A stretch of DNA of 51,299 nt from Scytonema tolypothrichoides VB-61278 (GTDB lineage: Bacteria; Cyanobacteriota; Cyanobacteriia; Cyanobacteriales; Nostocaceae). The number at the start of each line of letters is the position of its first letter. Position 1 is the stretch's first letter. A program made the position numbers and the translations under genes. Shown one piece after another: positions 6,787-50,362 of the stretch. Location: NCBI RefSeq assembly GCF_000828085.3, contig NZ_JXCA02000019.1, forward strand, positions 586,785 through 638,083, read 5' to 3'. The notes beneath the pieces are model-generated. The model did no database searches and was not told where the DNA came from. It was given only the letters and a program-made list of their open reading frames with translations.

Positions 6787-6993
6787 TTAACTCAAACCAG
6801 TATTAGTTTGCCGCTTACCAGTAGCCAACTCTACCTTGACAATTTTGCCACCTGCTTTTTGAATCCGTTGTTGTTCACTGAACCAGTTTTCGTAGGGAAC
6901 AAGCTTGGTGAAGTAAGTGTTTTGCAGTTCACGCTGAGTACGAATTCGAGTTTGGCTAGGAACACAAGCAGTAATTTTAAACAACCTTGCCAT
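6787..6993 (-). CDS. apcC: Phycobilisome core linker ApcC (LC7.8)
   Basis: The 68-residue protein begins MARLFKITACVPSQTRIRTQRELQ and carries the CpcD-like linker fold (FTKLVPYENWFSEQQRI, then GGKIVKVEL). Length and sequence match ApcC, the small linker that caps allophycocyanin trimers in the phycobilisome core. It is the last gene of apcE-apcA-apcB-apcC, but here a 563-base spacer separates it from apcB. It could come from read-through of the apcAB message or from its own promoter. The terminator at 6721-6745 follows it. Confidence 0.95.
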   Translation of the reverse strand: MARLFKITACVPSQTRIRTQRELQNTYFTKLVPYENWFSEQQRIQKAGGKIVKVELATGKRQTNTGLS

Positions 6994-8045: not shown

Positions 8046-8110
8046 GTTGTTGATTCCTTATTTCCAACTTTATTGGATTACTTCAGTTTCAGCAGGGAAA
8101 TAACTTCACC

Positions 8111-8596
8111 TTATTGCAAGCCACCGATTACGTAGTCAAAGTAAGAGCCAGCTTCAGCAGCGTCTTCACCAGACAACAGTGACGCAGCAGCGTTCTTCAA
8201 ACCACGAACACCTTCAGCAACACCTTCAATTGGAGTACCAAGGGACTTGTACATTTCGCGAACACCCACAAGACCAATTTCTTCAATGGGGGTGACATCA
8301 CCAGCTACAACGCCGTAGGTGACCAGACGGAGGTAGTAATCTAGGTCGCGCAAACAAGTAGCGGTCATTTCTTGACCGTAAGCATTACCGCCAGGAGAAA
8401 CAACATCAGGACGTCTTTGGAATAGTTGATCACCAGCTTGCTTCACAATACGCTCGCGGTTTTCGGTGATAACTTGAGCAATGCGCAGACGCTTTTCACC
8501 AGTAGTCACAAATCCCTTAATCCGGTCTAATTCGCCAGGACTGAGGTAGCGCGCTTCTGCATCAGCATTCACGATGGACTTCGTGACGATACTCAT
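8111..8596 (-). CDS. apcA: Allophycocyanin alpha subunit
   Basis: The 161-residue protein begins [20 protein letters not shown] and carries the bilin cysteine Cys81 (in [15 protein letters not shown]). Length and sequence are those of canonical ApcA; it is not the truncated ApcD or ApcF type. It forms the alpha-beta monomer with ApcB. A GGAG ribosome site lies a few bases before the start (minus strand). The 733-base gap to apcE upstream should hold the strong apcA promoter. Confidence 0.97.
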
Positions 8597-9329
8597 TAAT
8601 GGATTCCTCCAGTACTAAATAAAACCAGAATCTTAAACTGGTGCGGCTTTGATTGGTTAACTGAGGTTATTTTCTCATTTTTTAGATACAACAGCCAAAA
8701 AACTGCTGCAACTAGTATTTAAACGAGTGGGCTTGCGTAATGGCTAGTACATCAGCTCATAAACTCAGCTACCTTCCGGAATTATTTTCGGGCATTCTGT
8801 TGAGCAATTATGACTGCTCTTAACACTTTGTAACATTGTTTTTCATGTTGACTGCTCTACCGACAATCTGAAAGCTAATGTAGGGAAAGGTTAGAACGCC
8901 TTTTGCGAGTCAATATCCTACGCACAGGGTGTAAGGGTATAAGGGGAGGCAGTGCTGTGGGGAGCCAGTACTTGATGAGGGTTTCCCTCACGCTTGTTCT
9001 GGCGTCCGGGTTTCCCGACTTGTAGACGCCGGAGGCGGTGAGACAGCGCGAATGACGGCTTTCTCGACAGAGGCGACTGCGAACCCGAAGGGCTTCCCGC
9101 CTTTTTCGCACCTGGCGTTGTGAGGGTGTAGGGGGAAAAGAAGAATGGGAGAGGGGGCAGGCTGAAGACCACAACAGGAGAAACCAATTCACGTGAACTA
9201 ATATTTCTCCGCACTACAACTGCTCCCTACTCGTGGGCTTCTTAGTTTTTTCTCCTACACCCTTACACCCCTTCTTAGTCAAGAATCAAGTATCCAGGAG
9301 TTTACGCTCTTGAACATTAACTATTGCAC
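8597..9329. other. apcE-apcA spacer with inserted repeat
   Basis: No gene is supported. The part nearest apcA (8597-8880) is AT-rich and probably holds the apcA promoter and leader. The middle (about 8930-9130) is the GC-rich mosaic repeat shared with 4262-4440, but with extra internal units (for example around CGCCGGAGGCGGTGAGAC). A CCTACACCCTTACACCCC stretch at 9253-9271 resembles 5934-5978. Confidence 0.6.
8930..9130. repeat. GC-rich mosaic dispersed repeat (second copy)
   Basis: Same ordered blocks as 4262-4440 (GGAGCCAGTAC, GAGGGTTTCCCTC, GCACCTGGCGT, GAGGGTG). It is longer because about 60-70 bases of additional GC-rich sequence lie between the GGGTTTCCCGAC block and the GCACCTGGCG block. 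Confidence 0.6.
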
Positions 9330-13276
<3,947 letters not shown>

Positions 13277-33864: not shown

Positions 33865-34256
33865 TATGGAGATGAGGAATTTGAACTACCTACACTTTAC
33901 ATGTAGTCAGGTAGGTATGGAGTACTGTTTGCGTGTTCCTCCAGAGTTTTGAGCCAGGCATCCAAAACTTGTCTCAACTGTCCTTGCAAACTTAACTATG
34001 GTTGTATTAATATACTAAGGACCGCAGAAAACAGGATTATTTGCTACAAAAAAGAGTATTATGAGTCAATTAGCGTGTAAAAAAATGTTTGAAAAGGCTC
34101 TAAATTCAGTCTGATTTCAATGCATCTTTAACGCACTGTTCATACTTTATCATCTGGCATTCACTCAATCGAGAACAGCTAGAAAGAATTAAGTATAAAA
34201 AGACTGTATAATACAATAATATAAATCGTTATAGCCGTCATTTTCTAGCAGTTAAT
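33865..34256. other. Spacer between recJ and the NRPS locus
   Basis: Mostly AT-rich. On the minus strand about 33898-34003 reads as a short coding-like stretch (LQGQLRQVLDAWLKTLEEHA...TPYLPDYM-stop, shown in pieces) with a stop just upstream and no ribosome site, so it may be a gene remnant. The right part (34100-34250) should hold any promoter for the first NRPS fragment; none is clear. Confidence 0.4.
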
Positions 34257-34904
34257 ATGAACAAATCACCCTTAGATTTAGGCTATCAGACGACTGTCTT
34301 TAATAAAGATTCCGATATAACAACAGAAATGAAATATTATCAAAACAAGTGTATTCATCAGGTGTTTGCAGAGCAGGTAGAAAAAACATCTGATGCAGTA
34401 GCAGTCGTATTTGAAAACCAGCAATTGACCTACAGAGAATTGAATGCAAAAGCTAATCAACTGGGACATCACTTGCAAGCAATGGGGGTAGGCTCAGAGG
34501 TATTGGTGGGTCTATGCGTAGAGCGCTCTATTGAAGTCATAATAGGAATTCTCGGTATCCTTAAAGCCGGTGGAGCTTACGTTCCCTTAGATCCTACTTA
34601 TCCTTAAGAACGTCTGGCATTTATGTTAGAGGATACTAACTTAAAAGTGGTTTTAACTAAGACACAGTGGATAGAGATACTACCTGTTATTACCGCTTCA
34701 GTGATTCTTCTTGATGCAGACTGGCAAAAAATTGAGCAACAAAGCCAAGAGAATCCAGTGTGTGATGTGACGCCGGAAAACCTCGCTTACTTAATATATA
34801 CTTCTGGCTCTACTGGCAAGCCAAAAGGAGTACAAATGCCCCACGCCAGTGTTGGATATTATTTGCAAGCGATCGCTAAAATATTACCTGTTAATGGGAC
34901 TTAG
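34257..34904 (+). pseudogene. NRPS adenylation-domain fragment, nonsense codon and truncation
   Basis: Reads as the N-terminal half of an adenylation domain in one frame: FAEQVEKTSDAVAVVFENQQ, LTYRELNAKANQLG, GILKAGGAYVPLDPTYP, then TAA at 34605-34607, then ERLAFMLEDT and the P-loop YTSGSTGKPKGVQMPH. The stop replaces one codon in the conserved PTYPxERLAFM block; CAA to TAA would explain it. The frame then ends at 34904 where unrelated MITE-like DNA begins (34896), so the rest of the A domain, including the substrate pocket, is missing. Upstream there is no condensation domain. This is a dead relic of an NRPS or acyl-activating gene. Confidence 0.85.
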
Positions 34905-35196
34905 ACAAAAAGTAGCCAGAAAATAACCTCAAATCTATATATAGAGGGAGTTTAACATCGTTTTGCCTAGTTTCTTGATATAAGTAAGTCGGTGCAAAAA
35001 AATCAAACTGTGTAAAGAAAAGTAAATAAGGCTCAAACTCTTTCTCTCCCTGCTCCCTGCTCCCTGCTTTATTCCAACAAGAATTATTTACGCCGACCTA
35101 CTTATCTGGGTTTCAGACATTTTTGAGTCTTTGGTGTATTTTCCATGTCCTGCATAGGTTTGGGGCTTATTTCTGCCTCAAAAATGTTTAAGTCCC
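34896..35196. mobile_element. Outer MITE-like insertion, about 300 bp
   Basis: Starts GGGACTTAGACA (34896) and ends with TTTAAGTCCC (35187-35196); the extended arms match imperfectly (GGGACTTA...TAAGTCCC perfect over 8 bp). It interrupts the adenylation fragment. No transposase is encoded. A second, inner element is nested in it at 34980-35105, and the remainder contains a CTCCCTG tandem triplet (35048-35067). Confidence 0.55.
34980..35105. mobile_element. Inner MITE-like element, 126 bp
   Basis: Arms ATAAGTAAGTCGGTGC (34980-34995) and, inverted, ATAAGTAGGTCGGCGT (from 35105). Length, arms and the following A/T-rich block match a second copy at 50864-50983 near the IS630-like transposase. 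It is nested in the 34896-35196 insertion. Confidence 0.6.
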
Positions 35197-35397
35197 GTTA
35201 GATGCAAAGTGCTGTAAGTACGAGAACATAACAGGGATAAAACCACGTTCACATAAATACGTCGTCCCATGAAGAACACAGGAGTCACTGCGATGATTTA
35301 AGTATATTTAAGGAGTTTTTAAGTGTTTGACAATATGAATGAGTCGTTTTAATATGTAAATCAGCTTAGAATGCTAACAATTATTTCACCTTAATTT

Positions 35398-36149
35398 ATG
35401 ACGAGATCAAAAATTAAAATCATCAACACGATCAGCAACGTTATCAGCATGGTTTATGACGAAAAGATGCAACAGGCTTTGAATGATAGTTTTGCAGAAG
35501 CAAGCGAGTCACTGCAACATTGTGAAAACTTTTTTGCTCTGCTACCTACTCATTGCTGATCAGACAAAATGTTAGCCACATTCTTCAATTCTTGAAAAGC
35601 TACACACTTGAAAATGTTACCTACATACGGGCTATCTTGCCGTTTACAACGTCTTGCTTTTATCAAAGACGCTCAAGAACGGGAACAATTATTGTTAGCC
35701 AGTGCCTTCAATGCTGAAACTAGTCATGAAGATTTGGGGTTAGAGTATGAGGGTGTAACCCACACTGCACTCTATAGAAGATTTGGCAAGCAGCTTTTTA
35801 GGAAATTATCCATGGCGATTAGATGAATATTGTTTACCACAAGCGTGTGATTTTAAGAAATGGATATATCACAACATGGTGGTAAATGATATTTACAAGG
35901 GGCTACTCACAAACATGTTCTGAGAAATTTATAACCACGGTGAGTATACTCGAACTTTCTTTGCTTTTTCAGAATTATATTGACAAACATTACCACTTCT
36001 CTCTTGAATAAAAAAAGAAAGTTCTGTTCTATATTGGTGTTCATGTTGCAGACGAAACGGAAGTGGCTCACTTTCAAGTAGTTGTCAAAGCTTTGAATGA
36101 GTACAGCAAAGCTACTAACTTTGCTGCACACGTTGTTTTATTAGACTAA
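35398..36149 (+). pseudogene. Decayed paralogue of the HDO-like enzyme gene
   Basis: Pieces in different frames line up in order with the intact gene at 36215-37066. HEDLGLEYEGVTHTALYRRFG (split) matches IDEDLGVKGQTLHFELYYRM; after a frameshift near 35790, WRLDEYCLPQACDFKKWIYH matches WQSREFCLPSASDFKSWLD; and in a third frame IGVHVADETEVAHFQVV ending in TAA 36147-36149 matches IAVHNGGTEKHHFAHAC. The E-x-x-H metal motif survives (TEVAH). Several stops (near 35557, 35920, 35980) and at least two frame changes show it is dead. The N-terminal part (from ATG 35398) is too diverged to align well. Confidence 0.75.
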
Positions 36150-36214
36150 CGATGAAAAGCCTTACAGCCTCTTCTTAGATTTCAAATGGATCCCCATATA
36201 TCAATAGTAAAATA

Positions 36215-37066
36215 ATGCTTACTCAAGTACAGGCACATCGTAAAAAAGATTTTTTCACTGAAATGCAAGATGCTTTCAGTCAACTTGAACATCAACCACT
36301 ACGAAAAGTGTTGTTGGATAGCCTTCAAGCTGAACAAGACTCAGTTCGTGCTATAGATGTGAGCTTCCAGAACTTTACAAGCAAAAAGCACTCACCCCAA
36401 GTCTGTCGTTTATTCTTTGCATCATGGCAAAGAACAAATAACACGGCAATGTCCGTCGCGGGACTCGCAAACCGCATCACTCACGAAGCAGAACTTGCGC
36501 TCTTAATCGGCGAGAATCTATCTGTTGCACTAGAACTTTTCCGTAGTGCAGGGCGACTCAACCGAGTGATTGACGAAGACTTAGGAGTAAAAGGACAGAC
36601 TTTGCACTTTGAACTTTACTACCGTATGGCGACTAAGTTTAGCGGCAATGACGACGCATGGCAAAGTCGTGAATTTTGCTTGCCATCAGCCTCGGACTTC
36701 AAGTCTTGGCTAGACTCTGCGCGTCTAGTGGAACCGATGATGAATGGTCTGTTCTCGATGTTGATTCACGAGGGGTACACTCATGCAGAACTCGAGAACA
36801 TTGCACCAATGTTCGAGAAGTGGGCAATTGAAATCATGGGACTCCAGAAGAGCGATGCACGCCGATATCTTGCCTGGATCGCAGTTCACAATGGGGGTAC
36901 TGAAAAGCATCATTTTGCCCATGCTTGTGCCGCATTTGAACACTATTATCGTGCGACGTTAGCTGACATTAACCTTGAAGTTGCAAGTCAAATCTTCCAA
37001 AATTATTTACGTCGCAAAGGTGAAGTTATGAAGCAGATCAATGAGAAGATATATGGAGTGGCTTAA
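36215..37066 (+). CDS. Haem-oxygenase-like diiron (HDO) / iron-containing redox enzyme family protein
   Basis: The 283-residue all-helical protein shows the metal-ligand pattern of haem-oxygenase-like diiron enzymes: DEDLG (120-124) followed by LHFELYYRM with His131, a central Glu in HEGYTHAELE (185-194), and E230-x-x-H233 in GTEKHHF. Known HDO members oxidise or desaturate or N-oxygenate small amines, amino acids and fatty acids in natural-product pathways (SznF and UndA are examples). A role in tailoring an NRPS building block is inference from position, 116 bases before the A-PCP gene. A decayed second copy lies directly upstream. A TenA/PqqC-like relative is the main alternative. Confidence 0.6.
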   Translation: MLTQVQAHRKKDFFTEMQDAFSQLEHQPLRKVLLDSLQAEQDSVRAIDVSFQNFTSKKHSPQVCRLFFASWQRTNNTAMSVAGLANRITHEAELALLIGENLSVALELFRSAGRLNRVIDEDLGVKGQTLHFELYYRMATKFSGNDDAWQSREFCLPSASDFKSWLDSARLVEPMMNGLFSMLIHEGYTHAELENIAPMFEKWAIEIMGLQKSDARRYLAWIAVHNGGTEKHHFAHACAAFEHYYRATLADINLEVASQIFQNYLRRKGEVMKQINEKIYGVA

Positions 37067-37182
37067 GGCGCAAGTGCAGATTGAAATTACATTAACTTAA
37101 TGCGTGCCTAAAATCTCAGGATCAATATCCTCTATACAGATATCCTCATCCAAATCTTTACTACTCCTTTTTGCGAACTGCG

Positions 37183-39102
37183 ATGAATAACTCGTTCCAA
37201 CAGTTGATGCAGAGGTGTCACGTCAGTCCAACTAACCTATTTATAAAGTTCAACAAGGAAGATGTAGAACAATCCATTTGCGATCGCTTCCAAAAACAAG
37301 TACATATGTATCCCGAACGTATTGCGATCAAAACCAGGGAGCATACGTTCACCTATAATGCCCTGAATCAGTTCGCCAATCGCATAGCCAGGGCTATCTT
37401 AACTCAGCGCGGTCGTGGAGCAGAACCAATTCCACTGTTATTTGGAAGTGGTGCTTTGATAATTGCTGCAATGCTGGGTGTGTTGAAAACTGGAAAGTTT
37501 TATGTACCGCTAGACACTTCACTACCACAGGCAAGAAATAGCTATATCTTAGAAGATTTGCAAGCGAATTTACTTATAACTGATAGCAAGCATATCTCGC
37601 AAGCCTTGGAGTTGAATTACGGTGGGCTGCAAATCCTCAATATTGACGAACTTGATACAACGCTCTCCACGGAAAACCTAAATTTACCCATCCAACCCGA
37701 TAATTTTGCTTATATAATTTATACTTCCGGCTCAACCGGGCAGCCCAAAGGTGTCATCCAAAATCATCGTTACGTCCTGCATTTGACGATGAACTACACC
37801 AACACCGGTCACATTTGTGCTAGCGATCGTTTAGCGCTTTTGCAGTCCCCAACGTTTACTGGTGCTGTTCGCGATATCTACTGCGCCTTGCTCAACGGTG
37901 GAACGGTTTTGCCATTTGATGTTAAACGTGAGGGACTGACAAATTTAAGTAACTTTTTGCAGCAGGAAGAAATAACCGTATTTTTCGCAGTTGCGACCTT
38001 GTTTCGCCATTTTGCCAACACTCTAACCGGACAAGAGAAGTTTCCCAAACTTCGGCTGATTCAGTTGGGAAGTGAGACAATCTACAAGAAAGATGCAGAA
38101 CTTTACAAGCAGCATTTCTCCGATGATTGTGTCTTGGTTGCCAATTTAGGAAGCACGGAAATCAGCCCAATTCGGCAGTATTTTATTGACAAGAATACCG
38201 AAATTATTGGCAGTACTGTACCAGCTGGCTACCCCGTTGAAGATACTGAGGTTTTGCTAATTGATGAGCAAGGTAAACCAGTTGATTTTAACCAGATTGG
38301 TGAAATCGTGGTTAAAAGTAGTTATCTGTCTGTGGGTTACTGGCGAAAACCAGAGATAACCCAAGCAGTCTTCTTACCAGATTCAGACGGTGGGGATAAA
38401 CGGCTTTATAAAACAGGTGACTTGGGATGTATGACACCAGATGGCTGTCTTTTACACTTAGGTAGAAAAGACTTCCAGGTGAAAGTCAGGGGTTACCGAA
38501 TTGAAGTTGCAGAAGTTGAGATGGCGTTGCTCAACACTAACCTGATTCGAGAGGCTGCTGTCTTAGCATTACCAGATCATTTGGGTGAAGAACGTCTAGT
38601 AGCTTATATTGTGCCGAGCGCACTAAAACAGCTACCCTCTATCCGCGAGATCCGACGCTTGCTCTGTGAAAGCTTACCCAGCTACATGGTTCCCTCGACT
38701 TATATAACGTTAGAGGCTCTACCCTTAACGCCCACTGGCAAAGTTGATCGCCGTGCTTTACCCGCCCCAGATCAGGTTCAACTTGAGCCGTTAGCAAATT
38801 TCGTTGCGCCGCGCACCCCAATTGAACAGCAACTCGCTGAAATTTGGTCTCAAGTTCTCAAACAAGAACCGATTGGCATTGATGACAACTTCTTTGAACT
38901 TGGAGGCGATTCTTTACTCATAACTCAAGTAATTGCCCGCCTCCCTCATGCTTTCTCTGTGAAGTTGCCTCTACAAACTCTATTTACATTGCCAACCATC
39001 GCCGAACTTGCGGAGCGAATTGAGACCGTTCGTTGGACGACTCCAGCAACACAGGTTTCTGTTGAGGACAACACAGATGAATACGAGGAGGGAGCGCTGT
39101 GA
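37183..39102 (+). CDS. NRPS-type adenylation-PCP didomain protein
   Basis: Start at ATG 37183 (MNNSFQQLMQ); a TTG four codons earlier is possible and no strong ribosome site is seen. Residues about 30-530 form an adenylation domain: P-loop YTSGSTGQPKG (180-190), YKTGDLG (409-415), GRKDFQVKVRGYRIE (427-441), and catalytic Lys520 (PTGKVDRR). Residues 545-615 are a PCP with Ser577 (FELGGDSLL) for the phosphopantetheine arm. At the site equal to Asp235 of GrsA it has Thr226 (PTFTGAVRD), so a normal alpha-amino acid is unlikely. The C-terminal tail is acidic (DNTDEYEEGAL), fit to dock with the TubC domain of the next protein. Stop overlaps the next start (GTGA). Confidence 0.9.
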   Translation: MNNSFQQLMQRCHVSPTNLFIKFNKEDVEQSICDRFQKQVHMYPERIAIKTREHTFTYNALNQFANRIARAILTQRGRGAEPIPLLFGSGALIIAAMLGVLKTGKFYVPLDTSLPQARNSYILEDLQANLLITDSKHISQALELNYGGLQILNIDELDTTLSTENLNLPIQPDNFAYIIYTSGSTGQPKGVIQNHRYVLHLTMNYTNTGHICASDRLALLQSPTFTGAVRDIYCALLNGGTVLPFDVKREGLTNLSNFLQQEEITVFFAVATLFRHFANTLTGQEKFPKLRLIQLGSETIYKKDAELYKQHFSDDCVLVANLGSTEISPIRQYFIDKNTEIIGSTVPAGYPVEDTEVLLIDEQGKPVDFNQIGEIVVKSSYLSVGYWRKPEITQAVFLPDSDGGDKRLYKTGDLGCMTPDGCLLHLGRKDFQVKVRGYRIEVAEVEMALLNTNLIREAAVLALPDHLGEERLVAYIVPSALKQLPSIREIRRLLCESLPSYMVPSTYITLEALPLTPTGKVDRRALPAPDQVQLEPLANFVAPRTPIEQQLAEIWSQVLKQEPIGIDDNFFELGGDSLLITQVIARLPHAFSVKLPLQTLFTLPTIAELAERIETVRWTTPATQVSVEDNTDEYEEGAL

Positions 39103-42100
39103 AAACAGTAGAGAGTTTGTTATCAGAATTGCGGCAGCTTAATGTAAAGGTTTGGGCTGAGGGTGATAGCTTGCGTTATCGAGCCGCTAAGGGAATTTTA
39201 ACTGCAGACCTGTTGACACAACTGCGGGAGCGGAAAGCGGAAATTCTGTCTTTCCTTAGCCAGACTGAGGGTACCTTCGACTCTTGTGCAGAGAAGATTC
39301 AACCAGTTCAGAGAACTAGTTATCTTCCCTTGTCTTGCGGACAGGAGCGATTTTGGTTTCTTCAACAGTTGGAAGGAGCTAACGCTGCCTACAACCTAGC
39401 CAGAGTATTCTGTTTAGAGGGACGGCTCGACGCTACAGTGTTGGAGCAAGCCATCTCCTCTATTATTGAACGTCATGAGATTTTACGCACTAGGTTCAAG
39501 GTGATTGATGGCACACCAGTGCAAGTAATTGCTCCCAATACTCCCTTTACCATTCCCGTCTTCGATATACATGACCTGCCGGAAACCGTTCGCGCTACAG
39601 AAGCGCAACGAATGATTACTGAAGCCCAAACCCGCCCTTTCGATCTCACAGGAGAGTCACTGCTGCGGGTGCTACTCATCCGCCTGGAGCAGGAAACTCA
39701 TCTTCTGCAGGTCGTGATGCACCACATCATCAGCGATGACTGGTCTGTGCAGGTTTTCTTCAAGGAATTGTCTGTGTTTTACCAGGGGTTCCTCACGGGA
39801 ACTCATGCACCCTTACCAAACTTGGCGATTCAGTATGCTGATTACGCCCACTGGCAGCGTCAACAGCTCAATGAGGACACCATAGCCAAGCAGCTTAACT
39901 ACTGGCAGCAACACCTGACAGGTGCTCCAAGCATTCTAGAACTTCCCACTGACCGTCGCCGCACTTCAACTCAAACTTTTCAGGCAGGTATTGTGCCGTT
40001 TCGCCTCAGTGCTGACTTAACTCAGAAACTGAAGAGGCTGACCGGAAAGACAACCTTGTACATCACACTGCTGGCGGCTTTTGCAACCTTAATCTCCCGC
40101 TACAGTTGTGTTGAGGATATTGTTGTTGGTACTGCCGTTGCCAATCGCCACCCTGTCGAGACAGAACCATTGATTGGTTTATTTGTCAATACCTTGGCGT
40201 TACGCATCCAATTACAGGGCAATCCAACCTTTGCAGAACTCCTAGCCCATGTGCGCCAAGTCGCTCTCGATGCCTATGCTCACCCCGATGTTCCCTTTGA
40301 TCATATGGTCAAAACACTTCAACCCGAGCGACACGCCAGCTACAGTCCTCTGTTCCAAGTGATGTTCATTCTGCAAAATGTTCCCAAGGAGGAATTGGAA
40401 CTGCTGGGGTTGACAACCACTGTGATGGAACTCAATAAACCAACAGCTGGTGCCACGTTTGATTTAACCCTATCGTTACAAGAAGCAGAATCGCAACTTC
40501 AGGGGACGTTTGAGTATAATGCCAACCTGTTTGATGCTACTACTATTCAAAGGATGGCAGGGCATTTTCAAATCTTAGTTGAAGCGATCGCTACCAATCC
40601 AAACGAGCGTGTAGGGCAATTACCATTACTAACAGCAGCAGAACAGCATCAATTACTCATTGAATGGAATCATACCCAAACTAATTATCCTCACAAATGT
40701 ATCCATCAATTATTTGAGGAGCAAGTAGAAAAAACGCCTAATGCGGTAGCGGTAGGATTCAAAAATCAACAACTCACCTATCGGGAGTTAAACACCCGTG
40801 CCAACAAAATAGCACATTATTTGCGCTCATTGGGTGTGAGTAAAGAAACTTTGGTGGGAATTTGTTTAGAGCGAACCCCTAACATAATCGTAGCCATGCT
40901 AGGCATTCTCAAAGCTGGTGGTGCTTATTTACCTCTAGATCCCACCTATCCCAGCGATCGCTTGGCGTTTATGGTCCAAGACGCACAAGCCTTTTTACTG
41001 TTGACAGAACAGCAGCTATGTGGACAATTCACCACTGTTGAGCAGATTTGTTTAGATAGTGACTGGTCTGTCATTTGCCAAGAGAGCCAGGATAACTTAA
41101 ATTGTGAGACTACCGCCGATAATTTGGCTCACGTCATATACACATCAGGGTCAACAGGTCAACCTAAAGGTGTGATGATTCTCCATCGCGGGGTGGTACG
41201 ATTAGTACGAAATACGGATTATATAGATTTTCAATCAAAAGATATCATCGCACAAGTTTCTAATATCTCCTTTGACGCTGCTACCTTTGAAATTTGGGGA
41301 GCATTACTCAATGGTGCTAAGTTAGTCATTCTGGAAAGAGAAATAGTCCTCTCACCGCAAGATTTTGCTAGTAGCTTACAAACTGAGGGAATTACAATCC
41401 TGTTGCTTACTACAGCACTATTTAACCAAATGATTCAAGAAGTACCGTTAGCATTTCGAGCTTTACGCTACTTCTTTTTTGGAGGTGAAGCTGTTGACAC
41501 CAAGCGGGTGCGACAATTGTTAGAGGCAGGAGGAGCACCTCAACAGGTATTACACCTTTACGGTCCCAGCGAAAACACAACCTTGGCAACTTGGTATCAT
41601 GTCCAGCAAATAGAACCAAAAGCGGAAACAGTTCCTATTGGTAAGGCGATCGCTAACACACAAATCTACATTTTAGACAAGTATTTGCAACCTGTTCCTA
41701 TTGGTATCCCTGGAGAATTACATATTGGTGGTGTAGGTTTAGCTATAGGCTATCTCAACCGTCCAGAATTAACAGACCAAAAATTTATTCCTCATCCTTT
41801 TCAAGCTAATTCTAAATTGTATAAGACAGGTGATCTAGCGCGTTATTTACCAGATAGAAATGTTGAATTTCTAGGACGCATTGATAACCAAGTTAAAATT
41901 CGTGGTTTTCGCATTGAGCCGGGAGAAATTGAAACCCTCCTGAGTCAACATCCTCAAGTTCAGCAAACGGTGGTGACTGTACGAGAAGACGATCCAGGGA
42001 ATAAATATTTAACAGCTTATGTTGTTGGCGAAACAGAAACATTGACGAGTAGTGAATTGCGTCAGTTTCTCAAACAACAGTTGCCTGAATATATGATGCC

Positions 42101-43832
42101 AACAGCGTTTGTATTTCTCAACGCCTTTCCTCTGACCCCTAACGGAAAAATTGACCGTCGCGCCTTAAAAGCACCAAATTTACAGGAAAGTCGAGAAACT
42201 GCTTTTGTTCCTCCACGAAATCCGACAGAAGAAATCATCGCCAGCATTATGGCTACTGTCTTGGGTTTAGAACGAGTGGGTATTCATGATAACTTTTTCG
42301 AGTTGGGTGGACATTCTTTATTAGCAACTCAAGTTATTTCGAGACTGCGCGAGACTTTTGCTGTCGAAATATCTTTACGCTGTCTATTTGCATCACCTAC
42401 CATTGCTTCTCTGTGCGAGGTGATAGAAACTATAGCCAAAGCAGGGTTGAAAGATGAATCTTTCAGCAGTATTGCTTTTGATACCCTACCACCACTTGTG
42501 CCCGCAGATCAGGAAATACAGTTACCGCTGTCTATTGCACAACAGTTTATCTGGCATTATCAGCAGACTAATCCTAATAGTTACGCCTATAACAGCCGCG
42601 TTGTTTTACGTGTCACCCCAGCAGTTTCGCCCAAGGTATTAGAAAAAAGCATCAATGAGATAATTCGCCGTCACTCCATTCTGCGTACTTCCTTTATTAT
42701 CAAGGATGGTCAACCAGTACAAGTCATTAGTAAGTCTCTGACTATACCACTTGTGATATTGGACTTACAACACTTGCCTCCAGAAAAACGAGAACTTGCA
42801 GCCCGCAAACTGGCTCTAAAAGAAGCCAAGCACCGCTTCGACTTAGGATCTTGCCCTCTAGTGCGAACAACATTACTACAGTTGGCGCAAGAGGAATATT
42901 GGCTATTAATAACCATGCACCATATCATCACAGATGGTTGGTCTTATGGTATCTTTCTCCAAGAATTAAAAATGCTTTATCATGCATTTTTAAATGGCTT
43001 ACATTCACCTCTGCCCGAAGTTTCTCGTCAGTATGCAGATTTTGCTCTTTGGCAGCAAAAGTGCTGGCAGGAAGGGCTATTTCAAAAACAGCTTTCTTAT
43101 TGGCAGAACAGGTTAGCTAATATTTCAACATCACCCAGTCTCTTACCTACTGATTTTCCACAATTAACCACCAAAAGTACAAGAGCAACTTATCATTCTG
43201 TAGTTCTACCTGAGACTTTGGTTACCAATATAAAAACTCTCGCTCGTTCCCAAGGAGTTAGTATCTTCACCATCATTTTGACTGCTTTTAAAATACTCTT
43301 ATTCAAATGGAGTGGACAATCCGACATTCTAGTTTTGACCACAACTGCTAACAGAAATACACCGACAATTGAAAAAATGCTCGGATGCTTTATTAATGAC
43401 GTATTGTTACGAACTCAACTTGATAGTCATCACACAGGAATTACCCTTTTAAAACAAGTCAATCAAACAGTTAGTGAAGCCAACAATAATCAGCAACTGC
43501 CGCTGGCGGAATTCAATAAAATACTCCAGGGTAGACCTACTGCCTCTATTACGATGGATCCTTCCATAATTAGGCATACAAGACCTTGTTCTAGTCAGTC
43601 CCTCAACTATGAAATTTTATCAGTGCCGTGTGAAAATGAACTATGGAATGAGGATGTTATTCTAGAATTTTATGTTTATTCATATGGTGCAGATTCTAAA
43701 TTAATCCAAATCGCAGGGTATTGTAGTACCGATTCGTTCAAAACAGAAACTATCGATGATTTATTTCGCTACTTCCAGGAAATCATTGAGAAGTTTGTTG
43801 ACTATCCAGAAACTGAGATATTTAACTTCTAA
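39099..43832 (+). CDS. NRPS: TubC docking-C-A-PCP-C (terminal condensation domain)
   Basis: The 1577-residue protein starts with GTG 39099, which overlaps the previous stop by 4 bases. Domains: TubC-type docking (1-55), C1 (about 75-500, HHIISDD at 208-214), A (about 535-1025; YTSGSTGQPKG 681-691, Asp726 in ISFDAATF, Lys1017), PCP (about 1040-1110, Ser1073 in GGHS), and C2 (about 1140-1577, HHIITDG at 1274-1280). Read against GrsA, the A pocket begins Asp-Ala-Phe with later Phe/Gly and Leu-Thr-Leu; I do not assign an amino acid. No epimerase, thioesterase or reductase follows. A C domain with an intact HHxxxDG as last domain suggests release by condensation with a free amine. Polyamine genes follow. 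Confidence 0.93.
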   Translation: MKTVESLLSELRQLNVKVWAEGDSLRYRAAKGILTADLLTQLRERKAEILSFLSQTEGTFDSCAEKIQPVQRTSYLPLSCGQERFWFLQQLEGANAAYNLARVFCLEGRLDATVLEQAISSIIERHEILRTRFKVIDGTPVQVIAPNTPFTIPVFDIHDLPETVRATEAQRMITEAQTRPFDLTGESLLRVLLIRLEQETHLLQVVMHHIISDDWSVQVFFKELSVFYQGFLTGTHAPLPNLAIQYADYAHWQRQQLNEDTIAKQLNYWQQHLTGAPSILELPTDRRRTSTQTFQAGIVPFRLSADLTQKLKRLTGKTTLYITLLAAFATLISRYSCVEDIVVGTAVANRHPVETEPLIGLFVNTLALRIQLQGNPTFAELLAHVRQVALDAYAHPDVPFDHMVKTLQPERHASYSPLFQVMFILQNVPKEELELLGLTTTVMELNKPTAGATFDLTLSLQEAESQLQGTFEYNANLFDATTIQRMAGHFQILVEAIATNPNERVGQLPLLTAAEQHQLLIEWNHTQTNYPHKCIHQLFEEQVEKTPNAVAVGFKNQQLTYRELNTRANKIAHYLRSLGVSKETLVGICLERTPNIIVAMLGILKAGGAYLPLDPTYPSDRLAFMVQDAQAFLLLTEQQLCGQFTTVEQICLDSDWSVICQESQDNLNCETTADNLAHVIYTSGSTGQPKGVMILHRGVVRLVRNTDYIDFQSKDIIAQVSNISFDAATFEIWGALLNGAKLVILEREIVLSPQDFASSLQTEGITILLLTTALFNQMIQEVPLAFRALRYFFFGGEAVDTKRVRQLLEAGGAPQQVLHLYGPSENTTLATWYHVQQIEPKAETVPIGKAIANTQIYILDKYLQPVPIGIPGELHIGGVGLAIGYLNRPELTDQKFIPHPFQANSKLYKTGDLARYLPDRNVEFLGRIDNQVKIRGFRIEPGEIETLLSQHPQVQQTVVTVREDDPGNKYLTAYVVGETETLTSSELRQFLKQQLPEYMMPTAFVFLNAFPLTPNGKIDRRALKAPNLQESRETAFVPPRNPTEEIIASIMATVLGLERVGIHDNFFELGGHSLLATQVISRLRETFAVEISLRCLFASPTIASLCEVIETIAKAGLKDESFSSIAFDTLPPLVPADQEIQLPLSIAQQFIWHYQQTNPNSYAYNSRVVLRVTPAVSPKVLEKSINEIIRRHSILRTSFIIKDGQPVQVISKSLTIPLVILDLQHLPPEKRELAARKLALKEAKHRFDLGSCPLVRTTLLQLAQEEYWLLITMHHIITDGWSYGIFLQELKMLYHAFLNGLHSPLPEVSRQYADFALWQQKCWQEGLFQKQLSYWQNRLANISTSPSLLPTDFPQLTTKSTRATYHSVVLPETLVTNIKTLARSQGVSIFTIILTAFKILLFKWSGQSDILVLTTTANRNTPTIEKMLGCFINDVLLRTQLDSHHTGITLLKQVNQTVSEANNNQQLPLAEFNKILQGRPTASITMDPSIIRHTRPCSSQSLNYEILSVPCENELWNEDVILEFYVYSYGADSKLIQIAGYCSTDSFKTETIDDLFRYFQEIIEKFVDYPETEIFNF

Positions 43833-43971
43833 AAGGCTCATGTATTAATTTTTGTCAAACAGAAACCATCGAAGATCTATTTCGCTACTTGCAGGAAATC
43901 ATTAAGAAGCTTGTTGACTATCCAGAAACTGAGCTCTTTAACTTCTAAAAAGCTCATGTATTGATTTTTTC
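43740..43971 (+). repeat. 116-bp tandem duplication across the NRPS 3' end
   Basis: The last codons of the NRPS gene plus about 24 downstream bases (43740-43855) are followed at an exact offset of 116 bp by a near copy (43856-43971). The copy would encode IEDLFRYLQEIIKKLVDYPE and ELFNF-stop, against IDDLFRYFQEIIEKFVDYPE and EIFNF-stop in the real end. It lies after the stop codon and is not translated. Confidence 0.85.
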
Positions 43972-44146
43972 CAACTTGATTATTACTCCATAGAGCAGCT
44001 AAAATCATTACCTAGCCAAAATTATTGAGGAAATATCATCAGATATGAAAAGAAAATAGGTAATCCAATTAGATTAAAAAAATTTAGGAGTCAGAAGTTT
44101 TAGTAAAATATAAAGCAAGAGACATACTTAGACAAGGAGCTGCAGT
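43972..44146 (+). other. Spacer before the polyamine genes
   Basis: Together with the tandem copy this makes a 314-base gap after the NRPS gene. It is AT-rich. TAGACAAGGAGCTGCAGT at 44128-44145 holds the AAGGAG ribosome site of the next gene. No terminator is seen, so co-transcription with the NRPS genes is possible. Confidence 0.5.
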
Positions 44147-45346
44147 ATGGCACGAGTGATGATAGTTGGAGCTGGTGGGGTAGGGAATGTTGTTGTACAC
44201 AAATGTGCTGCACGACAAGAGTTTTCACACATTCTTCTAGCAAGTCGGACACTTGATAAGTGCCATCGTATTGCTGAAAGTGTCTCGTCACCAAAAGTCA
44301 AGATAGCTGAGCTTAATGCAGATAATGTTAATGATACAGTCAAGCTTCTTAAAGAGTTTCGTCCTGATATTCTCATTAATGTGGCACTTCCTTATCAGGA
44401 TTTAGCACTCATGGATGCGTGTCTTGAGGTAGGAGTTCACTATCTCGATACCGCAAACTACGAACCTCCTGACGAAGCAAAATTTGAATACAGTTGGCAG
44501 TGGAAATATCACGAACGTTACAAAAACGCAGGAATAACCGCTATTCTCGGATGTGGGTTTGATCCTGGAGTAACGGGAATTTTTACAGCCTATGCGCTCA
44601 AACATTATTTTGATGAAATTCACTATCTGGATATTGTTGATTGCAACGCCGGAAATCATGGACAGGCATTTGCTACAAACTTTAACCCAGAGATAAACAT
44701 CCGTGAAATAACACAACCTGGCAAGTATTATGAGAGTGGTAAATGGATAGAAGTCCCTGCTCTTTCGATTCATCGTCCAATCTCTTATCCAGAAATTGGT
44801 ATAAAAGAGTCATATCTTCTTTATCACGAAGAGCTTGAATCTCTGGTCAAGCATATTCCAACTATTAAGAGAGCACGTTTTTGGATGACGTTTTCAGAAA
44901 GCTACATAAACAATCTTCAAGTACTTCAGAATCTTGGGTTAACACGTATTGATCCAATTGATTATGAGGGAACTAAGATTGTGCCGTTGAAGTTTCTCAA
45001 AGCTCTCCTTCCGGAGCCTTCATCCTTAGCAGAGAATTATACAGGACAGACATCTATTGGTTGTCATATTCGTGGGGTTAAAAATGGAAAAGAGCGCAGC
45101 TACTATATATACAATAACTGTGAGCACACTAAGGCATATCAAGAGGTTAATGCACAAGCAATTTCTTACACCACAGGTGTTCCAGCGGTGATCGGTTCAT
45201 TGATGGTGGTTAATGGACTCTGGAAACAGCCGGGAGTGTTTAATGTCGAGCAGTATGATCCTAACCCTTTTATGGAACTGTTAGGACCTCTTGGTCTTCC
45301 CTGGCATGAAGTGATTGATCAGCCATCTCCATTTGAGGATAACTGA
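44147..45346 (+). CDS. Carboxynorspermidine dehydrogenase (saccharopine dehydrogenase family)
   Basis: The 399-residue protein has an N-terminal Rossmann motif MIVGAGGVGNVV (5-16) and runs closely like carboxynorspermidine/carboxyspermidine dehydrogenase: LINVALPYQDLALMDACLE, HYLDTANYEPP, ILGCGFDPGVTGIFTAYA, DCNAGNHGQAFATNFNPE (pieces). The enzyme condenses aspartate semialdehyde with 1,3-diaminopropane or putrescine, using NADPH. It is followed after 2 bases by the matching decarboxylase, so the pair makes norspermidine or spermidine. AAGGAG lies just before the start. Placed between an NRPS that ends with a C domain and an exporter, its polyamine may be the release nucleophile. Confidence 0.88.
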   Translation: MARVMIVGAGGVGNVVVHKCAARQEFSHILLASRTLDKCHRIAESVSSPKVKIAELNADNVNDTVKLLKEFRPDILINVALPYQDLALMDACLEVGVHYLDTANYEPPDEAKFEYSWQWKYHERYKNAGITAILGCGFDPGVTGIFTAYALKHYFDEIHYLDIVDCNAGNHGQAFATNFNPEINIREITQPGKYYESGKWIEVPALSIHRPISYPEIGIKESYLLYHEELESLVKHIPTIKRARFWMTFSESYINNLQVLQNLGLTRIDPIDYEGTKIVPLKFLKALLPEPSSLAENYTGQTSIGCHIRGVKNGKERSYYIYNNCEHTKAYQEVNAQAISYTTGVPAVIGSLMVVNGLWKQPGVFNVEQYDPNPFMELLGPLGLPWHEVIDQPSPFEDN

Positions 45347-45348
45347 GG

Positions 45349-46503
45349 ATGACGGACACTAGAAACTCAGTTTTGGCAACTATCCCATCACCTTGTTTTG
45401 TACTGGAAGAAGCACGTCTTGAGCAAAACCTCGCAGTTTTTGAACGAGTGCAACAAGAAACACCTGTACGAGTCCTTCTTGCTCTCAAAGCTTTCTCCCT
45501 ATTTCATAGCTTTCCACTGATACGAAAGACACTTCAGGGGGCGTCTGCAAGCTCGCTTTGGGAAGCGCAACTAGCTGCGGAAGAATTTGGAGGGGACCTT
45601 CATGTATATTCTCCTGCCTATCGTGATGAGGATATGTCTGCAATTATGACATATGCTTCTCACATAACATTTAACTCTCTGAGTCAATGGGAACGATTTA
45701 GACTACTCATTGAACGATCGCCTTCTCCACCATCAATAGGGCTTCGGATTAACCCCCAGTACTCACCTGTTAAGACTGCGCTTTATAATCCTTGTCAACC
45801 ATTTACACGTCTTGGTGTTTCTCCAGAACATCTTGGTACTTTGTTACCGCAGGGAATAGACGGTTTTTTATCTCACAACTTATGTGAGAGCGATTCCCAT
45901 GAGTTGGAAAAAACCCTCATACACATAGAACAATTTTTCGGGCATTTTCTACCGCAGCTAAAATGGCTTAATCTTGGGGGTGGTCACTTGATGACGAGTC
46001 TTGGGTATGATATGGCACATGCGATTAAAGTTCTCAAGGCGTTTCACAATCGTTACCCTCATATTGAACTGATTGTGGAACCAGGTTCTGCAGTTGCTTG
46101 GGAAACAGGGTTTTTGCTAAGTACTGTACGAGATATAATTCCCACCACTGATATCACAAATGTCATTTTGGATATATCGTTTACCGCTCATATGCCTGAT
46201 TGTTTAGAAATGCCTTATAAGCCTGTTATTTCGGGAACCCATGAACCACAGAAGGGAGAGAAAGCTTACCGCATGGGTGGCTCAAGTTGTTTAGCAGGAG
46301 ATTTTCTTGGTGATTATGCGTTCGATTACGACTTGTCAGTTGGCGATCGCATCATTTTTGAGGATATGATGCACTATACGATGGTAAAAACGACAATGTT
46401 CAACGGAGTAATTCATCCATCAATCGGTATACTTAAGAAAAACGGCACATTCGAGATCTTGCGGCAGTTTTCTTATGAAGACTATCGAGTAAGGCTTGGT
46501 TAA
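45349..46503 (+). CDS. nspC: Carboxynorspermidine decarboxylase
   Basis: The 384-residue PLP enzyme is of the fold III (alanine racemase/ornithine decarboxylase) type. Lys47 (LLALKAFS) would bind PLP; LNLGGGHL and VEPGSAVAW follow, and GGSSCLAGD holds the active-site Cys of the second subunit. The sequence start IPSPCFVLEEARLEQNL is typical of NspC. It removes CO2 from carboxynorspermidine or carboxyspermidine to give the triamine. Start is 2 bases past the dehydrogenase stop (TGAGGATG), so the two are coupled. Confidence 0.9.
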   Translation: MTDTRNSVLATIPSPCFVLEEARLEQNLAVFERVQQETPVRVLLALKAFSLFHSFPLIRKTLQGASASSLWEAQLAAEEFGGDLHVYSPAYRDEDMSAIMTYASHITFNSLSQWERFRLLIERSPSPPSIGLRINPQYSPVKTALYNPCQPFTRLGVSPEHLGTLLPQGIDGFLSHNLCESDSHELEKTLIHIEQFFGHFLPQLKWLNLGGGHLMTSLGYDMAHAIKVLKAFHNRYPHIELIVEPGSAVAWETGFLLSTVRDIIPTTDITNVILDISFTAHMPDCLEMPYKPVISGTHEPQKGEKAYRMGGSSCLAGDFLGDYAFDYDLSVGDRIIFEDMMHYTMVKTTMFNGVIHPSIGILKKNGTFEILRQFSYEDYRVRLG

Positions 46504-46521
46504 CAGCACATTTGTCGAGTC

Positions 46522-46640
46522 AGGGACTTGCGTGAAAATAAAGTACCAGTTAGCAAGTAACTACAGTGACATCCTATCCCCACGTTTTAAGTCGCTAAAC
46601 TTCTAGATTATCTGGTATGTTATTTCTTTGCAAGTCCTTT
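46522..46640. mobile_element. 119-bp MITE-like element
   Basis: Left arm AGGGACTTGCGTGAAAATAA (46522-46541) and right arm, inverted, AAGGACTTGCAAAGAAATAA (46640-46621) match in 15 of 20 positions. The arms resemble AGGACTTACGCAAAA of the 4137-4227 element. It lies between nspC and the MFS gene. Confidence 0.6.
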
Positions 46641-46749
46641 ATTACCCTGCCAACTACTATACTTACTGCCGTGTAGCAGGGAAATGAAAAAGAAATGCTA
46701 CATTTAACGATGAGGCTTTGTTACAAATTAACCAATAGTCAATGTTGCT

Positions 46750-48237
46750 ATGTTAGAAAATAACCCACCAGAGTTGAAAGAACAGTCCAGATTTGGATTG
46801 TCTTTATTTAGGTGGACTGAGTATTTCTCCAGTAAGGAAGGAGAGATAACTCAAAGCATGAGCGTTTTTATATTGATCTGGATTGGTCAGGTGTTATCTC
46901 TGGTTGGCTCTCGCATGACCAGTTTTGCTCTGAGTATTTGGATTTATCAGCATACTAACTCAAATACCCAATTCACTCTCCTGATTCTATCAACAACCTT
47001 ACCTGGGATTATTATCTCCCCGATTGCTGGAGTGTTTGTTGATCGCTGGAGTCGGCGCTGGATCATGATGATTAGTGACTTCTGCGCTGGTCTATGTACC
47101 TTAACCATTGCCTGGTTATTTATGAATGGCAACCTAGAAGTCTGGAGTTTGTGCCTAATTAGTGCTATCAGTTCTGGCTTCAGTGCCTTTCAGTCCCTCG
47201 CCTATTCTTCAGCCACTACATTACTAGTACCTCAAGAACAACTTGGTCGTGCTAGTTCGATGACGCAGATTAGGTTGGCTATTGCGGAAATCCTCTCACC
47301 AGTGCTGGCAACTGCACTGCTGGCAACTGTTCAAATTCCGGGAGTTATTCTCATTGATTTGACAACTGTGTGCTTTGCCCTGGTTTGTTTGCTAGTGGTT
47401 AAGTTCCCTGAAGTTCAGACCAAAGAAGCTAATGAAGAAGTAGGGTTCTTCTTTTCATTCTGGAAAGAAGTGTCTTTTGGATGGAATTATTTAATTGAGC
47501 GACCTGGACTGATTGGGTTAGTCATATTTATTGCTATCAGTAACTTCCTCATCGGTTTCGATGAAGCTCTAACTACACCTCTGGTACTTTCGTTCACTTC
47601 GGTTCAAATTCTGGGGACAATCTCTTCTATTGCTAGCTCTGGGATGTTAGTCAGTAGTTTTATTATGAGCTTCTGGGGAGGACTACAGCGCCAGATCAAT
47701 ATTATATTGATCTCAATGTTTTTTTTGGGTTTATTCTATGTGTTAGCTGGCTTGCATCCTAGCCCGATTCTGTTTACTATCTCTAATTTCTTTATATTTT
47801 TCATAGTTCCAATCGTTAATGGTGCAATCCAAGTCATTTTCCAAAAGAAAGTTGCTCCAGAGGTACAGGGAAGGGTCTTTGCATTCCGTACTGCGATTAG
47901 TCAGGGTTTTCTGCCGCTTTCTTATCTGATAGCAGGACCATTAGCTGACCAAGTTTTTGAACCGTTGATGGCTGCTGATGGGTTGGGAGCAGCTAGCATT
48001 GGGCAAATTATTGGTGTTGGGCATGGTCGCGGTATTGGTTTGATGTTTGTCATCATGGGTATATTTAGCATCTTTGTCACCTTCATCGCCTACTTGTATC
48101 CCCCTCTGCGTCTACTGGAAGATGAGTTACCGGATACAATTCCTTTTTTGGATCAACTCGACTTATCACAAGATATAGATGAATGCCTAAGCCAGAAAGT
48201 TACCTCTTTCAATAAACACGAGCCGAAACCCTTATAA
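46750..48237 (+). CDS. MFS exporter (MFS_3/macrolide-efflux type)
   Basis: The 495-residue protein has about 12 membrane segments. It shows the MFS loop motif DRWSRRW near residue 98 (FVDRWSRRWIMM) and the MFS_3 pattern QEQLGRASSM near 162. A long soluble N-terminal part (1-40) and an acidic C-terminal tail are present. This group includes EntS-like siderophore exporters and macrolide-type efflux pumps. Its place right after the NRPS and polyamine genes suggests it exports the product. Start ATG 46750 has no strong ribosome site. Confidence 0.85.
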   Translation: MLENNPPELKEQSRFGLSLFRWTEYFSSKEGEITQSMSVFILIWIGQVLSLVGSRMTSFALSIWIYQHTNSNTQFTLLILSTTLPGIIISPIAGVFVDRWSRRWIMMISDFCAGLCTLTIAWLFMNGNLEVWSLCLISAISSGFSAFQSLAYSSATTLLVPQEQLGRASSMTQIRLAIAEILSPVLATALLATVQIPGVILIDLTTVCFALVCLLVVKFPEVQTKEANEEVGFFFSFWKEVSFGWNYLIERPGLIGLVIFIAISNFLIGFDEALTTPLVLSFTSVQILGTISSIASSGMLVSSFIMSFWGGLQRQINIILISMFFLGLFYVLAGLHPSPILFTISNFFIFFIVPIVNGAIQVIFQKKVAPEVQGRVFAFRTAISQGFLPLSYLIAGPLADQVFEPLMAADGLGAASIGQIIGVGHGRGIGLMFVIMGIFSIFVTFIAYLYPPLRLLEDELPDTIPFLDQLDLSQDIDECLSQKVTSFNKHEPKPL

Positions 48238-48534
48238 ATTAGAGATTTTTGGAGTGAAGTGTTTCTTCCATTCATGCATGCGTGGTGGCGTTAATTTTAG
48301 ATTCAATGTGAACCCAAAAATAAGGGCGAATGCCGCCAATGGGTGTTTTGTCAATGCTTAAGTCCTATAGCAATCCTATTTGATTTGTGTTGGCATAGCC
48401 TGCGCGTAGCGCATAAGTCGCGCATGCTCAGATTCCCGACTTCTTTTAGAAATCGGGAATCTTGTTGTTCACAAATTTAGGACTGCTATAGTACCACAAA
48501 TATCTTTTTGAAGAAAAATAAGATTGAAATTAGA
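48238..48534. other. Spacer between convergent MFS and SDR genes
   Basis: Holds the MITE-like element at 48365-48491 and nothing else recognisable. The element's inner hairpin GATTCCCGA / TCGGGAATC (48431-48439, 48453-48461) may also stop transcription from both sides. Confidence 0.5.
48365..48491. mobile_element. 127-bp MITE-like element
   Basis: Left arm CTATAGCAATCCTATTTGATTTGTG (positions 48365-48389) and right arm, read inverted from 48491, CTATAGCAGTCCTAAATTTGTG; identical over most positions with a short gap. Both ends carry TA steps, as expected for elements that use TA targets. No coding capacity. Confidence 0.65.
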
Positions 48535-49630: not shown

Positions 49631-50362
49631 TTATTTTCTGATCTGTAGTGGTTTTTTAGAGATTTTGTATAGAGATTGCCAGAAGTCGAGAATCTGTTCT
49701 GCTACGAGAGTCGGCTGGAAGAAGTGAAAGAAATGCCGTCCTTTTTGACATTCCCAGTAGCGATCGCCCTCCATCAAAAACGGTCGCCATCCTTCCAAAG
49801 CCTCAGGTTCTACAATGATATCGTTAGTGCTACCACAAACCATTAAAGGCGCAGGGACTGGACTGGGAACCATGCTTAGTTGTTTAAACAGGGAGTGAGG
49901 TGAAAGCGAGCAATCTAAATCTCGTTCTAAAATCTTCTCTAGACGCTTGAGTGCGTGTTCATTTTGATAGCCAAATAAGTTATACACCATTGCATTAAGA
50001 ATTTTTTCCCGAGTTAAGGATGGGCGATGGCTATAGTAATGAGCTTGCCAGTCAAGGGCTGCATCAGCACCCACAGCTAAAAGGGTTAAAGATTTAACTT
50101 TTTCAGGATATCGACGTGTATATAGTAGTCCTAGTAATCCTCCCGTGCTATGACCAATCAAATGCACAGGTTGATTGATTGATTGAAGATAATCATCCAC
50201 CAGCAGTGTTGCAACATCTAAGGAACTAGGTTCATCCTGAGTTTGAGTATATTCCCACTGGGCAATAGTTACAGAACGTGACAGTTCACGCAACAATGGT
50301 TGAGCAAAGCATAACAAACTAGGGCTTGTGTTCAACCAAATGGCTTCTGGTTGTTTAGACAT
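49631..50362 (-). CDS. Alpha/beta hydrolase, IsiC-like
   Basis: The 243-residue protein has the alpha/beta fold: nucleophile elbow LIGHSTGGLLG with Ser72, likely Asp in VCGSTNDIIVEP (near 194) and His in KGRHFFHFF (near 221). It resembles thioesterase-like hydrolases such as IsiC that follow isiA in cyanobacterial iron-stress operons. The gene upstream on the same strand is a cut-off IsiA/CP43-type antenna gene, which supports this link. A role as a stand-alone thioesterase for the NRPS is possible but it lies on the other strand, 1.4 kb beyond the exporter. Confidence 0.75.
   Translation of the reverse strand: MSKQPEAIWLNTSPSLLCFAQPLLRELSRSVTIAQWEYTQTQDEPSSLDVATLLVDDYLQSINQPVHLIGHSTGGLLGLLYTRRYPEKVKSLTLLAVGADAALDWQAHYYSHRPSLTREKILNAMVYNLFGYQNEHALKRLEKILERDLDCSLSPHSLFKQLSMVPSPVPAPLMVCGSTNDIIVEPEALEGWRPFLMEGDRYWECQKGRHFFHFFQPTLVAEQILDFWQSLYKISKKPLQIRK

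Follow-up and report, generated by a model that had tools for sequence, protein, structure and literature searches.

The window analysed here is a stretch of 51,299 nucleotides (G000:C4:586785-638083) from the 7.9 Mb genome of the cyanobacterium Scytonema tolypothrichoides VB-61278. It carries a small nonribosomal peptide synthetase (NRPS) cluster followed by two polyamine genes. Positions are those of the window; G000 is the source genome, G001 to G006 are six other genomes of the genus, L numbers denote fetched loci and g7 another genus, the kin considered being cyanobacteria. Reading of the open reading frames (ORFs) together with domain searches confirmed an intact set of genes, all on the forward strand: NRPS1 (37171-39102), a loading protein with an adenylation domain (A1) and a peptidyl carrier domain (PCP); NRPS2 (39099-43832), resolved by domain search as TubC-C1-A2-PCP-C2, where C is a condensation domain; a relative of carboxy(nor)spermidine dehydrogenase (CANSDH-like; 44147-45346), recognised by profile matches; a carboxynorspermidine decarboxylase of the NspC family (45349-46503, TIGR01047); and a major facilitator superfamily (MFS) exporter (46750-48237). 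The NRPS genes overlap by four bases, and two bases separate the CANSDH-like gene from NspC. An earlier note on this DNA had proposed that the last C domain transfers the peptide onto norspermidine or spermidine made on site. The genes that it described from base 36215 onwards were all found, but this base opens a 283-residue orphan ORF that it did not mention, not the A-PCP gene.

Neither NRPS1 nor NRPS2 was found to contain a thioesterase (TE) or reductase domain when both proteins were searched, and C2 (42519-43817), with an intact HHIITDG motif, sits at the extreme end of NRPS2 with no A-PCP-TE behind it in the cluster; on these points the earlier note was right. NRPS2 begins with a TubC N-terminal docking domain (PF18563, residues 4-55; 39108-39263), and the motif of C1 reads HHIISDD. 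In relatives such as L100, L101, L104 and L112, an A-PCP-C-A-PCP-C arrangement is encoded as a single chain that stops at C2, and these fused relatives give the module order as A1-PCP, C1, A2-PCP, C2, with nothing after C2. An alpha/beta hydrolase (ABH) gene lies downstream (49631-50362). We considered it as a dedicated TE and rejected it, since it stands outside the genomic island described below and is present in G001, G003 and G004, which have no cluster.

Relatives of C2 were sought in a sample of 388 genomes of the order, where the best are 42-53% identical, and 20 regions were fetched around matches to C2 and to the orphan protein. A quick tree of 69 C domains (from 98, once rows shorter than 380 residues and duplicates contained in others had been removed) placed C2 within a group of 23 rows, all 23 terminal in their proteins (support 100), with three terminal rows outside. 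After addition of 79 rows from named genomes, a midpoint-rooted FastTree phylogeny of 148 rows gave a C2 clade of 31 rows, every one terminal (support 1.0); L118 and L098 are one contig, counted once, hence 30 distinct members. Rows were chosen by likeness to C2, terminality being no criterion, and the extent of the clade is that of a sample, so that at least 31 rows belong to it. The clade takes in 31 of the 37 terminal rows of the larger set and, among the matches listed, was seen in cyanobacteria only. Named members include Iningainema tapete BLCC-T55, Rhizonema sp. PD38, Cylindrospermum sp. NIES-4074, Nostoc sp. CHAB 5715, Calothrix sp. NIES-4105 and Anabaena catenula FACHB-362. The catalytic HHxxTD residues (H164, H165, T168 and D169) are unvarying in 15 of 15 aligned members; the predicted structure of C2 has a mean pLDDT of 57.0.

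Both trees place C2 with terminal domains and not with the internal C domains that are followed by an A domain, so its reading as an ordinary LCL domain was rejected. The earlier note had named such a grouping, together with a downstream A-PCP-TE protein, as the outcome that would count against it, and we found the opposite grouping in trees that hold no VibH or rhabdopeptide rows, in a genome not searched for a free A-PCP-TE. The terminal-only clade and the fused relatives that stop at C2 thus support the assignment of C2 as a putative chain-terminating C domain.

The neighbours of clade members were compared at 26 other clade loci, a count that leaves out L068, L074 and L081 (clade rows with 4.4-kb loci only); flank lengths vary, L116 totalling 5.2 kb. 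A homologue of the window MFS stands behind C2 in 15 of the 26 (tblastn, at least 60 bits), and a match to the FA_hydroxylase family in nine, one of them a fragment. The same scan of 71 other NRPS loci from the named genomes gave no match to the MFS, CANSDH, NspC or other decarboxylase queries. CANSDH and NspC were found in none of the 26, and other decarboxylases lie near two: in L101 an Orn/DAP/Arg-type (ornithine-decarboxylase-like) gene stands between the terminal-C NRPS and the MFS, and in L107 there are two Orn/Lys/Arg-type decarboxylase genes.

What the two modules load may be read from the adenylation codes, whose positions we presume to follow GrsA numbering. The A1 code, TGRFILNPI, has no Asp235 and has Arg239, two features found again in loading domains of the g7 cluster type (AGRFIVNPI), of L095 (GGRFIINPV) and of clusters with a fatty-acid-hydroxylase (FAH) family gene (TARDIFIGH or TARDIFIGN). 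Since Asp235 is missing, the substrate of A1 is presumably not an ordinary alpha-amino acid, and we infer an acid that has no alpha-amine and may bear a second carboxylate. A2 (40713-42149) has the code DAFLFFLTL, close to the DAFFLFVTF of relatives, which we take to be Ile/Leu-like. The second A domain of the g7 type reads DFWNVFMVH, so the second residue would differ there.

As to the polyamine genes, NspC passes its family model (TIGR01047, 525.4 bits against a cut-off of 409.05). The protein that the earlier note called carboxynorspermidine dehydrogenase falls below the NF043000 cut-off (414.5 bits against 800), which makes it a relative, and a carboxyspermidine-type enzyme is equally likely. 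CANSDH acting with putrescine provides a route to spermidine. No match to S-adenosylmethionine (AdoMet) decarboxylase was found in the G000 genome, which has one PF01916 protein, and its only strong PF00282 protein is PanP, not a diaminobutyrate decarboxylase. Taken together, these observations make spermidine from putrescine likelier than norspermidine, and the pair most likely makes spermidine; the CANSDH route to this compound is also named in the available text of PMC8503589. Norspermidine, one of the two acceptors first proposed, gains no support as the likely polyamine from the PF00282 evidence; spermidine is possible as an acceptor, and its use by C2 is plausible. The PanP aspartate decarboxylase is itself encoded within a large NRPS/polyketide synthase region of G000 (L228 1276-2916; G000:C4:478636), which suggests a beta-alanine unit there. 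The PF01916 protein (G000:C1:1293143) is of a shorter type, the only one in G000 (frame of 352 aa) and G003 (363 aa); a type of about 404-416 aa occurs in G001, G002, G005 and G006, and G004 has both.

CANSDH (E<=1e-80) was matched in 11 of 386 sampled genomes of the phylum; of 59 near relatives, 6 have it at 75% identity or more, and both figures count G000 itself. We fetched 14 CANSDH loci from other genomes, with varying flanks (L056 holds 6.5 kb): NspC adjoins CANSDH in eight, and six show none beside it. The earlier note had held that finding the pair in relatives away from any NRPS would speak against it, and this is what we observe, as no A or C domain was seen in 12 of the 14 loci, nor in six of the eight with NspC adjacent. 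The exceptions are L054, with a remnant, and L057, where an A-PCP gene faces the pair. The pair of L235 and L237 has as neighbours a spermidine synthase gene that scores over its cut-off and a decarboxylase gene of the Orn/Lys/Arg type, to which L235 adds an agmatinase over its cut-off; in L055 the pair adjoins an agmatinase-like gene under the cut-off. Because the pair is mostly found away from A and C domains, and in L235, L237 and L055 beside spermidine synthase, agmatinase or agmatinase-like genes, we read it as a general polyamine module and not as a component that the NRPS requires. L057 itself (1649-10158, in G023) has the pair facing a pyridoxal phosphate (PLP) decarboxylase, a MATE exporter, the A-PCP gene with a C-terminal extension, and PanD, and is possibly another amine-using cluster.

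The NRPS genes and the pair lie together on one genomic island (33964-48366, about 33.96-48.37 kb, no strand) between recJ and an SDR gene; the island is missing at this site from five congeners, G001, G003, G004, G005 and G006. In G003, matches to the window stop at 33963, and after 34 bases they start again at 48366. RecJ and SDR stand next to each other in G001, G003 and G004, apart from one 204-aa ORF between them in G001 and G004; G005 and G006 have a single unrelated ORF there, of 853 and 835 aa. G002 (89% complete) is the nearest congener by the flanking SDR-ABH stretch (96.2% nucleotide identity, against 91.5-92.5% for G001, G003 and G004) and carries the pair in the same position. It was considered as an ancestral empty site and rejected: a C2 remnant (92% nucleotide identity, with frameshifts and stops) is joined there to an A-domain fragment, with about 8.9 kb missing between the two, so that G002 has lost the NRPS. 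Between G002 and G000, dN and dS are 0.011 and 0.093 for CANSDH and 0.017 and 0.053 for NspC; the neighbouring SDR and ABH genes give 0.021/0.075 and 0.023/0.126. The segment carrying the MFS gene (46591-48366, forward strand) is also missing in G002, and its right edge is that of the island, which implies that it was lost in G002 or added in G000. Its 93% nucleotide identity to L101 (over 1574 columns), from another genus, favours a recent transfer of the segment. That the NRPS genes and the pair came together in the G000/G002 lineage allows for a working link between them.

Upstream of the NRPS genes, the intact orphan protein (36215-37066, forward strand) gave no Pfam or NCBIfam match and a single PDB match (E 0.83). 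It was matched in 4 of 386 sampled genomes of the phylum, G000 included, and among the 59 near relatives in G000 alone. Its predicted structure is all helix at low confidence (mean pLDDT 48.5), and E121, H131, E186, H190, H225, E230 and H233 are kept in all six aligned sequences; we take it to be a candidate heme-oxygenase-like diiron oxygenase. Right upstream lies a decayed, frameshifted relative of the g7 type (35398-36119, forward strand; three pieces in three frames), which is 75-87% identical to the L096 orphan and 88% identical in nucleotides to L093 over 679 columns, and about 26% similar to the intact orphan. A broken g7-type copy beside a divergent intact one points to a mosaic locus, with an apparent replacement of the enzyme by a distant relative. 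Other debris consists of a decayed adenylation-domain fragment (34338-34853, forward strand; 57% to A2), with in-frame stops and an ORF at 34257-34607 that matches AMP-binding, and of a repeat of the last 30 C2 codons just past the C2 stop (43856-43945, forward strand; 80% identical).

The g7 cluster type (L093, L094, L096 and L097) consists of an orphan relative (25-27% identical), an A-PCP gene (A1 72-73% identical) and TubC-C-A-PCP-C, the latter divided into two ORFs in L097. CANSDH and NspC are absent from these four loci. L094, L096 and L097 also have an ORF of the 327-aa class that weakly matches Asp/Glu racemase, scoring under the Pfam cut-off; L093 keeps a 68-residue piece of this ORF.

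We may therefore hypothesize how such a cluster would work. A1-PCP would load a carboxylic acid without an alpha-amine, perhaps a diacid that the helical oxygenase-like orphan makes or oxidises; C1 would couple this starter to an Ile/Leu-like residue on A2-PCP; C2 would free the acyl-aminoacyl chain as an amide with a small soluble amine; and the MFS protein would export the product. CANSDH and NspC would produce spermidine from putrescine and aspartate semialdehyde and, being on the same island, may raise the supply of acceptor without being an obligate part. This two-module route to an amine-capped acyl-amino acid, released by C2 and with the pair as a non-obligate source of acceptor, seems to us about evenly poised between right and wrong. 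It is favoured by the terminal-only clade with its invariant HHxxTD, the fused relatives, the MFS gene in 15 of 26 clade loci against 0 of 71 others, the A1 code with Arg239 and no Asp235, the common island, the decarboxylase genes near L101 and L107, and the putrescine amide-synthase C domain described in the available text of PMC10587159. Amine release by C2, taken by itself, is well motivated and is the account that we prefer, a soluble amine being the likeliest acceptor, but we hold it with the scales level.

Several observations weigh against this proposal. In place of an amine, C2 might use an alcohol, water, an internal nucleophile or another PCP as acceptor. Six of the 37 terminal rows fall outside the C2 clade, so the terminal position arose more than once, and VibH, which we take to be in the PDB, is not listed among the 60 PDB sequences matching C2 at E<=1e-5. 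The MFS gene is not exclusive to the clade, as a partial match occurs in L095, whose orphan-type cluster has no C2. No match to any of the four decarboxylase and CANSDH queries was found in 24 of the 26 other clade loci; two of the decarboxylase query types were drawn from clade loci themselves, which makes the comparison with the 0 of 71 a post hoc one. Cyanobacterial AAT-fold decarboxylase homologues, perhaps of the L107 kind, are held probably not to be polyamine-related in the available text of PMC8503589. L099, L102, L107 and L108, all clade members, keep an ordinary Asp235 in every typed A domain, so the starter chemistry is not common to the whole clade. Finally, G002 keeps an intact pair after loss of its NRPS.

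This last point also belongs to a serious alternative that we place somewhat short of an even chance: co-location only, C2 using an amine of the general pool (putrescine, agmatine or homospermidine) or another nucleophile, and the pair being a stand-alone spermidine pathway. The CANSDH genes in 11 of the 386 sampled genomes, the pair's usual setting away from A and C domains, its place in L235, L237 and L055 beside spermidine synthase, decarboxylase, agmatinase or agmatinase-like genes, its absence from all 26 other terminal-C loci and its intact state, with the dN and dS given above, next to a broken C2 in G002 speak for this alternative. Against it stand the common island of NRPS and pair in the G000/G002 lineage, the position of the pair directly behind the NRPS on the same strand and, in G000, between NRPS and MFS, and the like placement of the ornithine-decarboxylase-like gene in L101.

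Alternatively, C2 may pass the chain on to a residue carried by the PCP of another A-PCP protein encoded elsewhere, or release it by cyclisation or hydrolysis. G000, where no search for a free A-PCP-TE was made, has 22 C-domain matches in several clusters, and in L114 the terminal C is followed by a methyltransferase and then by an NRPS ORF starting with an A domain; however, MFS or non-NRPS genes come after C2 in the other clade loci read, and A1, the sole free-standing A-PCP of the cluster, lacks Asp235 and hence would be a starter, not an acceptor. We consider this alternative as a whole unlikely. That the cluster is decaying and no longer makes a product, as the debris at 33.96-36.2 kb, the duplicated C2 tail and the deletion of most of the NRPS in G002 might suggest, is quite improbable given that the five genes at 36215-46503 and the MFS gene are open, that the A, PCP and C domains are recognised in full and that the 93% nucleotide identity to L101 gives the MFS segment the look of a recent acquisition.

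Returning to amine release by C2, a more specific form of it would make the cluster an NRPS route to an E-64-like cysteine protease inhibitor (diacid-Ile/Leu-polyamine). The E-64 route is described in the available text of PMC12568646 as NRPS-independent, using an ATP-grasp enzyme and an amide bond synthetase; the cyanobacterial mfa cluster is there called homologous to it, and circinamide an E-64 analogue from Anabaena whose producer's genome is unavailable. In a separate NRPS route, A1 would load fumarate or trans-epoxysuccinate, with Arg239 binding the diacid in a pocket that lacks the usual Asp235; the orphan, or the FAH-family protein of related clusters, would be a diiron epoxidase; A2 would add Ile or Leu; and the terminal C clade would add a polyamine, here the island-encoded spermidine. 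On this reading, FAH-type clusters in Anabaena-like genomes would be candidate sources of circinamide. As a whole, this chain of assignments is a long shot. The composition of E-64 and circinamide (diacid warhead, Leu/Ile, amine) is the one that the A1 and A2 codes, together with the terminal C domain, would suggest.

FAH - A-PCP-C-A-PCP-C - MFS clusters occur in Anabaena-like genomes (L115, L121 and the g27 genomes). Those of Cylindrospermum NIES-4074, Anabaena catenula FACHB-362 and others have the C2 clade, the module order and the MFS in common with the window, the MFS showing 85% protein identity in these two genomes. They differ in having an FAH-family gene in place of the orphan and no polyamine pair; their starter code, given above, comes from the clusters typed and not from the two named genomes. 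No product was found for these terminal-C assembly lines in the open-licence PMC literature.

The analysis defines a clade of terminal C domains that belong to small assembly lines, which often come with an exporter. If it is true that the clade forms amides with free amines, its members would be compact release modules for amine-capped peptides. The island also sets up a natural experiment on whether the polyamine genes work for the peptide, as G000 has both and its closest congener, G002, has kept the polyamine genes only.

Known systems offer several points of comparison. VibH of vibriobactin synthesis acylates norspermidine and is a free-standing C domain, in contrast to C2, which lies at the end of NRPS2. 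Rhabdopeptides and xenortides are made by small iterative enzymes of Xenorhabdus and Photorhabdus whose terminal C domain releases the chain onto amines; their likeness to C2 is one of description. These terminal C domains, and assembly lines that end in a C domain standing alone as the last module, are also named in the available text of PMC10587159. The same source reports that in the glidonin assembly line the C domain itself forms the amide with free putrescine at the chain end. The glidonin line resembles the window in having a C domain as known amide former, in the window a proposed one, at the end of the chain. It differs in that its C domain is followed by a partial A domain and by T and TE domains and acts on a dodecapeptide, whereas the window has a bare terminal C domain of a cyanobacterial clade.

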